A DNA stretch of 64,000 bases from Weeksellaceae bacterium (GTDB taxonomy: Bacteria > Bacteroidota > Bacteroidia > Flavobacteriales > Weeksellaceae). Shown here piece by piece: positions 20,941-23,907 of the stretch. A program made the translations under genes and the position numbers. Each line of letters starts with the position of its first letter. The first letter of the stretch is position 1. The stretch spans positions 124,001 through 188,000 of the forward strand of contig JAKLPS010000008.1 of assembly GCA_022013695.1 (NCBI GenBank). Reading direction: 5' to 3'. The notes below the pieces were generated by a model. The model worked only from the letters and a program-made list of their open reading frames with translations, had not been told where the DNA came from and did not search any database.

Positions 20941-20982
20941 TTTGGAGAATGCAAAAAAATTATAACTTTGCAATTCAAAGTT
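20941..20982 (+). promoter_or_regulatory. Promoter with overlapping palindromic operator (site 1)
   Basis: TTTG at 20941-20944 and TAACTTTG at 20963-20970 form a -33/-7 pair with an 18-bp spacer. The -7 box is embedded in a palindrome: AACTTTG (20964-20970), CAATT, CAAAGTT (20976-20982). The start codon follows at 20989. A repressor bound here would cover the -7 box and the start site. A matching palindrome lies at 21962-21979. Confidence 0.7.
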
Positions 20983-20988
20983 CTTTAT

Positions 20989-21606
20989 ATGGAATCAAAA
21001 AATTATCAGGAAGAGTTGGCGCACATCCGCCAACTGATGGAACGCAGCTCAAGATTTATTTCATTGAGCGGTTTGTCCGGCGTTATTGCAGGAATCGTAG
21101 CATTGCTGGGTTCCGTTTATGTCTATTTCGTTTTCCAGAGAGAAAGTCTCGATTATTTTGATGTCGAAAGAAATAATTATACTCACGATCTAGCCAAGGA
21201 ACTGTTTTTTGTGACTTTGCTTGTTTTGAGTCTTGCGATTATGAGCGGATTTATATTCACAGCAAGGAAAAGCAAAAAGAAAAATCTGAAAATCTGGGAT
21301 TCGATCACCAAGAAATTGTTATTTAATTTTGCTATTCCTTTAGTGGCAGGTGGAACTTTTTGTGTCGCGCTTTGGCATCATCATCACTTTGCTTTTATAG
21401 CGCCCGTGATGCTCATTTTCTACGGCCTGGCCTTGATCAATGCAGAAAGATATACCCTGAGCGACATCAAGTATCTTGGCATTTGCGAAGTTGTACTTGG
21501 AATCGTCTCTTTATTTTTCCTTGGTTGGGGATTGATGTTTTGGACGATCGGCTTCGGATTTCTTCATATTTTCTACGGGATTTTGATGTACAAGAAATAT
21601 GATTAA
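20989..21606 (+). CDS. Conserved polytopic membrane protein in HTH_34-regulated operon
   Basis: The ATG at 20989 gives 205 residues beginning MESKNYQEELAHIRQLMERSS, an amphipathic cytoplasmic helix. About five or six membrane segments follow, including LSGVIAGIVALLGSVYVYFVF near 34-54. A His-rich turn (ALWHHHHFAFIAP) sits between two of them. I recall similar proteins widely in Bacteroidota, without known function. It is the first gene of a plus-strand unit with a winged-helix regulator 49 nt downstream. Its promoter carries a palindrome that is repeated before the DUF4153/4173-like gene, so control by that regulator is likely. Confidence 0.75.
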   Translation: MESKNYQEELAHIRQLMERSSRFISLSGLSGVIAGIVALLGSVYVYFVFQRESLDYFDVERNNYTHDLAKELFFVTLLVLSLAIMSGFIFTARKSKKKNLKIWDSITKKLLFNFAIPLVAGGTFCVALWHHHHFAFIAPVMLIFYGLALINAERYTLSDIKYLGICEVVLGIVSLFFLGWGLMFWTIGFGFLHIFYGILMYKKYD

Positions 21607-21655
21607 AGAAAAAATCGAAAGAGGAAAGAATCAAAATAAAACAAACGACTAACAG

Positions 21656-21946
21656 ATGCTCAACATCAACCAACTCAACAAAGAATTCGAAAGTCGTGTA
21701 AGATTGGGCATAATGTCCGTTCTTATGGTCAACGATTGGGTTGATTTTACCGAAATGAAAAACCTGCTGAGTGCGACCGACGGAAATCTCGCCAGTCATA
21801 GCGCAGCGCTAGAAAAAGCAGAATTTATAGAAGTGAAAAAGGAATTTGTAGGCAAAAAGCCGAAAACTTCCTACCGTGTTACGAAAAAGGGACGCGACGC
21901 GTTTACAGAGCATATCAATAATCTGGAACAACTGCTCCGCTCATAA
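21656..21946 (+). CDS. Winged-helix transcriptional regulator (HTH_34 type)
   Basis: This 96-residue protein is a single winged-helix domain. RVRLGIMSVLMVNDWVDFTE forms the first helices, LLSATDGNLASHSAALEKA is the recognition helix, and VGKKPKTSYRVTKKGRDAF is the wing and final helix. The TDGNL..H and SYRVTKKG words match the HTH_34 (ArsR/MarR-like) domain. No metal or ligand site is visible. It lies between two membrane-protein genes, each preceded by an ACTTTG-N5-CAAAGT palindrome, so it probably controls both and itself. Such small regulators usually bind as dimers, which fits 6-7 bp half-sites. Confidence 0.88.
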   Translation: MLNINQLNKEFESRVRLGIMSVLMVNDWVDFTEMKNLLSATDGNLASHSAALEKAEFIEVKKEFVGKKPKTSYRVTKKGRDAFTEHINNLEQLLRS

Positions 21947-21961
21947 ATTTTTTTAGCTTAC

Positions 21962-21979
21962 AACTTTGAAATACAAAGT
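21962..21979 (+). promoter_or_regulatory. Palindromic operator (site 2) upstream of the DUF4153/4173-like gene
   Basis: ACTTTG (21963-21968), AAATA, CAAAGT (21974-21979) repeats the arms and 5-bp spacer of the site at 20964-20982. The preceding CAACTTTG is one base from a TAnnTTTG -7 box. The start codon of the downstream gene is at 22029. Confidence 0.65.
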
Positions 21980-22028
21980 ACTTTAAATATAAAAAAAATA
22001 ATATGTTCACACAAAAATCATCAAAATT

Positions 22029-23414
22029 ATGAAAAAACAACATCTCATCTTCGTCACAGTTTTGGCAGTCGTCATTCTTTTTTATAGAGAATACATCGCC
22101 CTCAACCTCGGAATTTTAGGCGTATTTCTGAGCATTCTGACCTTTGCGCAAACCAAAACGGAACTGCGAGACAGGCCATTTTTGTTTCTGTTCGTCACGT
22201 CCGTTTTTTCATCATTTGCATTCGCTTGGTTTGGCGACGCGGTTTCGTTCGTTGCGGTATTCAGTTCCATTTTCTTATTAAGATTTAGAGGAACGTTCCC
22301 TGAATTGAAACCGCTTCTGTACCTCGAGATCCTCTTAATCAACCTTTTTACGTTTATTATAAGAGTTTTCAACATCCAACAATGGTACGAGGGTTCCAAA
22401 GAAAGAAGCTTTGTCAAAAAAATGATCACCTTTGTTCTGATTCCGGGATTATTCACCGTGGTTTTCTTTTTTATCTATGCGCACGGTAGCGATCATTTTG
22501 CTAATTTGTTTAATGATGTTGATTTTCAGCCGCTTACCTGCATCGTGATTGCGATTATTGGATTCTATTGGGGTTTCATTTTTTGGAATTTCAATGTGCA
22601 AACATGCATTTTCAAGCAAAATCAGTATCTGAATGACGATTTTTCAGGCAGAATCAATACAGAAAAGCCCACGTTCGGATTTTTGGATGTAGATTCCGAA
22701 AGAACCAGCGGACTGATCTCTTTTTCGGCCCTCAATATTTTGCTTTTAATTTTCCTTGTGACCTATAATTATGAACAATTTTTCGAGGTTTCAAAGTCTG
22801 CAAACAGCCTGAGTGCAGAAACGCACGAGCGGGTAAACTCTGTGATAGTCTCCATTGGGATGGCAATTCTCGTGATTCTTTTCTATTTCAAAAAAGGATT
22901 TAATTTTGATGAAAAATCGAAGTCTTTGAAAATTTCTGCCAAGATTTGGATCGGATTGAATGCACTTTTGCTCGTGTCTGCGATCCTTAAAAATTCGGAA
23001 TATATTATTAATTTTGGTCTTACTTACAAGCGTTTGGGTGTTTACGCATTCTTGGCAATGGCCTTGATTGGTTTGATTTTTACCTTCATCAAAATTCAAA
23101 ATAGAAAGACAAATGCCTTCCTCTTCAACAAAATGTTTTGGGCGTCGTATGGCTTGATTTTGGTTTGCAGTTACGTCAATTGGGGCGCAATCATCACACA
23201 AAACAACATCGAAAGAAAGGATTTTGCCGAGAATTTTCATTTGGTTTCCATTAATTATAACGAGCGAATTTTACTGGATTATGCCAATAAAACCGGAAAC
23301 TTACTTATGAAAAAACAGATTTCGCAAAGAATTGAATCGTATCAAAAGGAAAGCTTCCTATCAAAAATTTTATATTATGAAAGCATTAATATCGACCAAA
23401 CAAAGTCTAAATAG
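22029..23414 (+). CDS. DUF4153/DUF4173-like polytopic membrane protein
   Basis: The 461-residue protein has about 11-12 membrane segments in two blocks (roughly 5-125 and 135-410). A cytoplasmic or loop stretch between them contains LNDDFSGRINTEKPTFGF. The second block has INFGLTYKRLGVYAFLAMALIGL. The G-L-T-x-x-R-x-x-V pattern is typical of DUF4153/DUF4173 proteins, whose function is unknown. The C-terminal 60 residues are soluble (LLDYANKTGNLLMKKQISQRIES). It follows the regulator by 82 nt with an operator between, and overlaps the next gene by 38 nt. Family naming is by eye; which of the two DUFs fits better needs an HMM search. Confidence 0.7.
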   Translation: MKKQHLIFVTVLAVVILFYREYIALNLGILGVFLSILTFAQTKTELRDRPFLFLFVTSVFSSFAFAWFGDAVSFVAVFSSIFLLRFRGTFPELKPLLYLEILLINLFTFIIRVFNIQQWYEGSKERSFVKKMITFVLIPGLFTVVFFFIYAHGSDHFANLFNDVDFQPLTCIVIAIIGFYWGFIFWNFNVQTCIFKQNQYLNDDFSGRINTEKPTFGFLDVDSERTSGLISFSALNILLLIFLVTYNYEQFFEVSKSANSLSAETHERVNSVIVSIGMAILVILFYFKKGFNFDEKSKSLKISAKIWIGLNALLLVSAILKNSEYIINFGLTYKRLGVYAFLAMALIGLIFTFIKIQNRKTNAFLFNKMFWASYGLILVCSYVNWGAIITQNNIERKDFAENFHLVSINYNERILLDYANKTGNLLMKKQISQRIESYQKESFLSKILYYESINIDQTKSK

Positions 23415-23874
23415 CTTGAAATATCTTTCTTTAATTCCACTTTTTTTGGTGGCTTGCAAGAAGGAACCGGCAGTAAAAGAATCGCAACCCCCAACTGAAA
23501 TAGGGGTGGACAAATCAGTTGATACATTGACGGCCATCTTGAAGACAGAAAAGGAAGCGAATCAGAATATCGTGACCGTGGATGCCTCCAAAATGCCCAT
23601 TCGACTGAATCTCGAGATTAAAAATCCGGATGATCAAATTATTCTGAAGTTAGAAAACTTCGGGCAGCCAAAGCTGAAAGCTTATTTGAAGACCGAAACG
23701 CCTATGAACATTCGATTCAGCCAAATCCGAATGCCAGATAATACCTTTGATGGACCGTTTGGCCCTGCTATTGAATATGAGACGAAACAGAAAGGCGAGT
23801 ATTGGTTAATTTTTGCAAAAAATAATATGGCAGATGGCGAGCCAGTCGGAAAATTCTTTGTAAAAATTGAATAA
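23377..23874 (+). CDS. Hypothetical lipoprotein, last gene of the HTH_34 operon
   Basis: The ATG at 23377 gives 165 residues, starting inside the 3' end of the previous gene (38-nt overlap), so translation is probably coupled. The N-terminus MKALISTKQSLNSLKYLSLI leads to the lipobox VACKK with Cys at about 28. The mature part is a small beta-rich domain (INIRFSQIRMPDNTFDGPFGP, YWLIFAKNNMADGEPVGKFF) that resembles the pre-peptidase C-terminal or jelly-roll domains of exported proteins. I do not recognise a family. Its position suggests it works with the two membrane proteins at the envelope. Confidence 0.7.
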   Translation: MKALISTKQSLNSLKYLSLIPLFLVACKKEPAVKESQPPTEIGVDKSVDTLTAILKTEKEANQNIVTVDASKMPIRLNLEIKNPDDQIILKLENFGQPKLKAYLKTETPMNIRFSQIRMPDNTFDGPFGPAIEYETKQKGEYWLIFAKNNMADGEPVGKFFVKIE

Positions 23875-23880
23875 AATATC

Positions 23881-23907
23881 AGACCTCTGCGTGAGATCTT
23901 TTTTTAT
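23881..23907 (+). terminator. Terminator of the membrane-protein operon
   Basis: AGACCTC pairs with GAGATCT (one mismatch) around TGCGT, followed by seven T. It overlaps the 3' end of aroQ, which converges from the other strand. Confidence 0.55.

Follow-up and report, generated by a model that had tools for sequence, protein, structure and literature searches.

A candidate one-component HTH_34 module with a 22-bp element at two positions around a membrane protein–regulator gene pair in Bacteroidota

A 64,000-nucleotide stretch of a Weeksellaceae genome (contig JAKLPS010000008.1, positions 124,001 to 188,000; this whole stretch is referred to as the window) encodes a 96-amino-acid (aa) winged-helix regulator of the HTH_34 family next to an integral membrane protein, here named mem1. 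A 22-bp palindromic element occurs twice around this gene pair: on the promoter in front of mem1 (site 1, promoter P1) and between the regulator gene and a downstream gene for a DUF4153 membrane protein (site 2). We consider it likely that these parts form a one-component module, in which the HTH_34 protein acts on the element at both places, combining autorepression with the gating of an envelope operon, and mem1 is the source of the signal. Sequence comparison establishes the element, its two positions, its tie to the gene pair, its two architectures and the families of the target genes.

From this arrangement we infer the following scheme of binding, dimer formation, repression and sensing. 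The 96-aa HTH_34 protein, as a dimer, would occupy both copies of the 22-bp element. Bound to site 1, it would switch the mem1–regulator operon off; at site 2, the same protein would gate an envelope operon, consisting of the DUF4153 and lipoprotein genes in the window genome and of CreD with accessory proteins (Coq4-like, DUF1361, metallophosphoesterase, small membrane proteins) in relatives. mem1 would read the state of the membrane or envelope and relieve or impose regulator binding. The regulator probably controls a set of poorly characterized inner-membrane proteins that maintain the cell envelope.

In the direction of transcription, the full element of 22 bp reads ACTTTG-N5-CAAAGTNCTTT, i.e., ACTTTG-N5-CAAAGT-N-CTTT in the sequence logo, with an AT-rich spacer and CTTT as a third half-site. 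It is directional, CTTT lying downstream at sites 1 and 2 and at 14 unlinked copies read towards their genes. Of the two palindromes described in an earlier note on this DNA, the first stands at 20964–20982 as given, and the second begins at 21963 (to 21979), not at 21962; the third half-site, the T-tract before site 2 and the CreD link reported below go beyond that note. The exact palindrome was absent from 100 Markov-model windows and occurs three times in the 2.6-Mb window genome, the third copy lying within an open reading frame (ORF) on contig C22 that we take to be PurH. The exact 22-mer was found in 93 of 296 genomes of the order, and its reversed control in one. Looser searches were rejected: with up to two mismatches, the palindrome gave 9 matches in the window versus 5.9 in shuffles, 15 of 100 of which reached 9, and the 22-mer gave 10 matches in the window's own genome versus 9 for the reversed control, so only the two exact sites were counted there.

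Conservation was assessed at 190 regulator loci, 80 from the nearest group (the best 80 of 382 loci), 20 from the family, 50 from the order and 40 from the phylum; the order and phylum sets are hand-picked regions, the latter from the 192 of 345 genomes with a match. A site was accepted with at most 2 of its 16 fixed positions changed. The mem1 gene lies near the regulator in 168 of the 190 loci. Of these 168, 160 carry site 1 and 153 site 2; 147 have the two together and 166 at least one. Both sites occur in 77/79, 16/18, 32/37 and 22/34 loci of the nearest, family, order and phylum groups, respectively, so the pair is kept less often in the outlying parts of the phylum. Among the nearest relatives, all 78 loci whose mem1 start can be read carry site 1 (exact in 70, one base changed in 8), and 79 of 80 carry site 2 (exact in 58, one base changed in 20, two in 1); the single miss, L038, reads N there.

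The proposal of the earlier note that palindrome and regulator belong together is borne out by these same two positions in nearly all orthologous loci and by co-occurrence across 148 family genomes. The exact palindrome is present in 98 of 102 genomes with the regulator and in 7 of 46 without it (Fisher p = 6e-24, uncorrected for relatedness), and the reversed control in 48/102 and 24/46, respectively (p = 0.60). Upstream of orthologous operons, where a lack of the palindrome had been named as a counter-argument, the palindrome is present at nearly all loci. Four regulator genomes have no exact palindrome: two (G013, G021) carry one-mismatch copies at both places, and two (G025, G086) hold distant homologues without mem1. 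Among regulator homologues without mem1 nearby, 19 of 22 have no site.

The regulator matches the HTH_34 profile (PF13601) with 105.6 bits (curated cut-off 27), its closest relatives among the best matches being those of Epilithonimonas and Chryseobacterium (91–95% identity). The structural model (predicted local distance difference test score, pLDDT, 84) has a winged-helix fold; the best match is PH1061 (1ub9; template modeling score 0.82), followed by the PadR protein Rv3488 (5zi8). The presumed recognition helix, TDGNLA(S/T)H, hardly varies among 93 orthologues, whereas 21 homologues without mem1, mostly siteless, have a different one. The half-site spacing of 11 bp, one DNA turn, fits a winged-helix dimer that would bind on one face of the DNA. 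Certain lineages have AAAAG as the right arm (10 site-1 copies in the 93 loci compared). When base changes in the site were set against residue changes in the helix to look for co-evolution, this C-to-A change at site 1 accompanied Thr47 in 4/10 versus 2/76 cases (p = 0.0013, uncorrected for relatedness or positions examined).

mem1 is predicted to consist of an N-terminal helix and six long helices, and its model (pLDDT 83) had no match in the PDB (best E 0.61). As the constant partner of the regulator (168/190 loci), it is, by association only, the likeliest candidate for the source of the signal. The lipoprotein, which the earlier note named beside the membrane proteins as a possible route of sensing, found no such support: it was searched for in 150 of the 190 regulator loci and gave no hit in one set of 70 of them. 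Many relatives carry variable extra genes between mem1 and the regulator (e.g., L037 3564–3950, L061 3379–3996), an insertion spot inside a conserved pair; among them is a gene for a 23S rRNA-intervening-sequence-type protein.

Table 1. Features of the module (span 20942–23874 of the window), in order: P1, site 1, mem1, regulator, T7 tract, site 2, DUF4153 gene and lipoprotein-like ORF
Feature	Position	Strand	Remark
TTG, −33 element of P1	20942..20944	+	18 bp upstream of −7 box
TAACTTTG, −7 box of P1	20963..20970	+	consensus TAnnTTTG
Site 1, 22-bp element ACTTTG-CAATT-CAAAGT-T-CTTT	20965..20986	+	present in 160/168 loci
mem1, 205-aa integral membrane protein	20989..21606	+	no Pfam family over its cut-off
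HTH_34 regulator, 96 aa, single-domain winged helix	21656..21946	+	profile match, fold match
T7 tract, end 8 bp upstream of site 2	21948..21954	+	tract kept in most site-2 copies
Site 2, 22-bp element ACTTTG-AAATA-CAAAGT-A-CTTT	21963..21984	+	present in 153/168 loci
DUF4153 membrane protein, presumed main target in window	22029..23414	+	Pfam match
Lipoprotein-like ORF, overlaps DUF4153 gene by 38 bp	23377..23874	+	Cys motif LVACKK read by eye

According to PMC9723704, Bacteroidetes sigma-A promoters carry TTG followed by TAnnTTTG, with this −7 box at −12 to −5. Site 1 fits such a promoter (TTG-N18-20-TAnnTTTG) both in the window and in relatives. As had been recognized from the window alone, it overlaps the −7 box, TAACTTTG, with TTG 18 bp upstream; 139 of 160 site-1 copies have TTG 17–23 bp upstream of the box, and in 152 of 160 an ATG lies 22–28 bp past the first base of the site. 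With the box placed as in that source, site 1 spans about −10 to +12 of P1, the part that the dimer would cover. Since the operon read from this canonical promoter includes the regulator gene itself, site 1 is most naturally understood as serving autorepression, and the position and conservation of the element fit the presumed binding and repression at P1.

For site 2, the comparison gives no support for a promoter of the site-1 kind. The −33 element is missing, with no TTG in CAACTTTG in the window and a −33 TTG in 2 of the 153 copies, and the TA of the −7 box is variable. The proposed four-gene unit is borne out only in part, as site 2 and the T-tract separate the first two genes from the last two. 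A run of at least six T is found at 140 of the 153 site-2 copies, ending exactly 8 bp upstream of the element in 132, and seven copies without a run of at least five T have A5-7T3-4 in its place. The tract stays with site 2 where the latter has moved from the regulator gene (L192, L205, L242, L264). At other element copies outside the nearest group, it accompanies a close co-directional upstream gene (18/33 versus 10/70, p = 4e-5), a tie consistent both with termination and with a roadblock. In the window, the best fold of the hairpin before the tract (−2.3 kcal/mol) falls short of an intrinsic terminator; pre-tract hairpins beat shuffles in 6/15, 8/35 and 8/19 cases in the wider groups (22/69 together) and in 47/77 among the nearest relatives, and stable hairpins do precede the tract at unlinked Flavobacterium sites. 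Downstream of site 2, no further conserved −7 box came to light.

A general class of T-tract promoters was considered and rejected. The pattern T6-[AG]-N5-8-ACTTTG occurs 19 times outside main site 2 (2.17 Mb, both strands; 2 to 7 expected in total), 16 times in element copies and 3 times elsewhere, indicating that the tract belongs to the element. A count of TpA steps over the tract (76/153) did not separate a rigid A-tract from a T-run and was not used.

On a further reading, which we hold to be somewhat less likely than not, site 2 would be a regulator-gated passage and not a promoter operator: a 37-bp composite of the phased T/A-tract and the 22-bp element, present across the Bacteroidota sampled, at which the winged-helix protein would either halt polymerase coming from P1 or recruit it without a −33 element. 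If so, one protein and one element would serve two mechanisms, over a mem1-responsive membrane regulon (CreD or DUF4153, Coq4-like, C92 amidase, small LAVG proteins). For halting, site 2 would not be a promoter; polymerase arriving from P1 through mem1 and the regulator gene would run into the bound regulator, stop with the active centre on the T-tract some 15 bp upstream and release there, and departure of the regulator would switch the targets on by read-through. A blocked polymerase stands off by 15–20 bp. The near absence of a −33 TTG, the inconstant TA, the fixed distance of the tract, hairpins that do not outdo shuffles in three of the four groups, the link to a co-directional upstream gene and the joint movement of tract and site 2 all argue for such a roadblock. 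We nevertheless regard it as unlikely: the spacing is more exact than the mechanism requires, the A5-7T3-4 copies would not give U-rich RNA, and no P1 lies upstream of the unlinked copies, of which the tract-bearing ones mostly follow a real hairpin (L304–L308, L313, L314). Recruitment, with P1 repressed and the targets activated, would make site 2 a weak non-canonical promoter at which the T-tract (UP-like or as bent DNA) and the regulator bring in polymerase. The missing −33 element and the exact 8-bp phase speak for it, as do the A-tract substitutions, which keep DNA shape rather than U content; however, the regulator would cover the start if transcription begins as at site 1, and no second conserved −7 box appears downstream, so we rate activation as less likely still.

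Alternatively, the regulator gene could simply end in an ordinary intrinsic terminator, the T-tract, followed at site 2 by a conventional weak promoter that is repressed like site 1. The real hairpins at unlinked Flavobacterium sites, the 47/77 hairpins more stable than shuffles among the nearest relatives and the presence of TAACTTTG at 41/78 of their site-2 copies make this a serious candidate, but one that we doubt in view of the weak fold in the window, the 22/69 in the wider groups and the exact spacing. Among roadblock, activation and an occluded weak promoter behind a terminator, we favour none for site 2. By far the least credible, and already disfavoured, is the view that the palindrome belongs to a promoter or a mobile element and has nothing to do with the regulator. 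The left arm is indeed part of the −7 box, and the element pair flanks the mem1–regulator cassette; yet the right arm and CTTT, positions at which no promoter element is known, vary no more than the left arm, the palindrome is missing from regulator-less genomes save 7/46, and its positions are fixed relative to start codons (152/160).

Several observations weigh against the module as proposed. One or both sites are absent from 21 of the 168 loci, and 2 have neither. Three homologues without mem1 nearby carry a site (L052, L218, L269). The genome counts are phylogenetically non-independent, and relatedness inflates the statistics. Among four loci examined from the seven regulator-less genomes with the palindrome, one (L178) shows a complete, genuine-looking element ahead of a target-type gene, suggesting that the site can outlive the regulator. 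Finally, site 2 has no promoter hallmarks and is therefore not accounted for by mere occlusion of a promoter.

Downstream of the regulator, CreD is encoded in 39 of the 168 loci and DUF4153 in 105, of which 78 belong to the nearest group; 24 loci have neither and none has both. The CreD assignment (PF06123) was made with E 1e-109 or better in the five cases tested, and the DUF4153 protein of the window matches PF13687 with 113.5 bits (curated cut-off 27). Homology between DUF4153 and CreD was not found by hhalign (probability 0.4); mutually exclusive per locus yet without detectable homology, the two are either analogues or related too remotely to be seen. Recurrent companion genes encode Coq4-like proteins, DUF1361, a metallophosphoesterase and small proteins with W-(A/S/L/I)-(E/N)-LAVG. 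Searches of the window's own genome for CreD (PF06123) and Coq4 found neither, which makes its module a reduced form, and a Pfam search of the lipoprotein-like ORF matched no family.

The 14 unlinked copies of the element, in 13 genomes, were taken from among the matches listed. They precede genes for C92 amidase (6; Pfam tested in one), VIT-domain membrane proteins (2; Pfam tested in one), LAVG-type proteins (2), other small membrane proteins (2) and, directly, Coq4-like proteins (2). A Coq4-like gene lies at most two ORFs from the unlinked element in 7 of the 14 copies, suggesting that Coq4-like genes retain the element after relocation. Large membrane proteins, one of them with a VIT domain, are found with the element in two Flavobacterium-group genomes (L315 2877–5372 and L309 from 1999).

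Winged-helix repressors that control their own local genes are well established. The module resembles the PadR/MarR/HxlR-type local autoregulators in its single winged-helix domain, its presumed palindromic operator on the regulator's own promoter and its envelope or transport neighbours. It differs from them in its family, HTH_34, in two such presumed operators of unlike architecture flanking the gene pair, in the constant membrane partner and in a candidate operator nearly unchanged across the phylum sample. With CreBCD of Proteobacteria, it shares CreD, here the candidate target in 39/168 loci; creD is linked to a two-component system there, whereas here it would answer to a candidate one-component winged-helix protein with a membrane protein. 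Compared with Bacteroidetes sigma-A promoters, site 1 conforms, whereas site 2 differs and carries the phased T-tract. To our knowledge, few one-component regulons with a known operator have been described for Bacteroidota.

Loss of CreD in Stenotrophomonas maltophilia leads to filaments, sodium dodecyl sulfate sensitivity and a leakier outer membrane, as stated in PMC4689548. Of two papers that name DUF4153, one (PMC4822843) mentions it only as unrelated to Cache domains. Our literature search, with subscription journals mostly outside its coverage, found no paper describing the module. As far as the literature was searched, the phylum-scale element, the split architecture and a CreD/DUF4153 regulon under a one-component regulator are undescribed.

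Across much of the phylum sampled, sequence alone yields a candidate regulator and operator, a constant membrane partner and the families of the targets. One candidate regulon joins four little-understood families, CreD, DUF4153, DUF1361 and the bacterial Coq4-like proteins, and the role of each becomes testable in a laboratory strain such as Flavobacterium johnsoniae. The split architecture poses a clear question, namely how one operator can serve two purposes.

Some minor observations concern regulator-less genomes. At the L178 site (L316 7185–7206), a site-1-type promoter and the full element lie directly before the gene of a 96-aa LAVG membrane protein; the arrangement looks like a deletion of mem1 and the regulator, and no regulator was detected in this genome. 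At L180 1501–1522, ACTTTGTTTTGCAAAGTACTGT lies upstream of a PadR-type gene, which may be chance or the site of another regulator. Among regulator-less genomes of the family, the palindrome has a mean of 0.17 against 0.61 for its reversed control, a scarcity that looks like avoidance.

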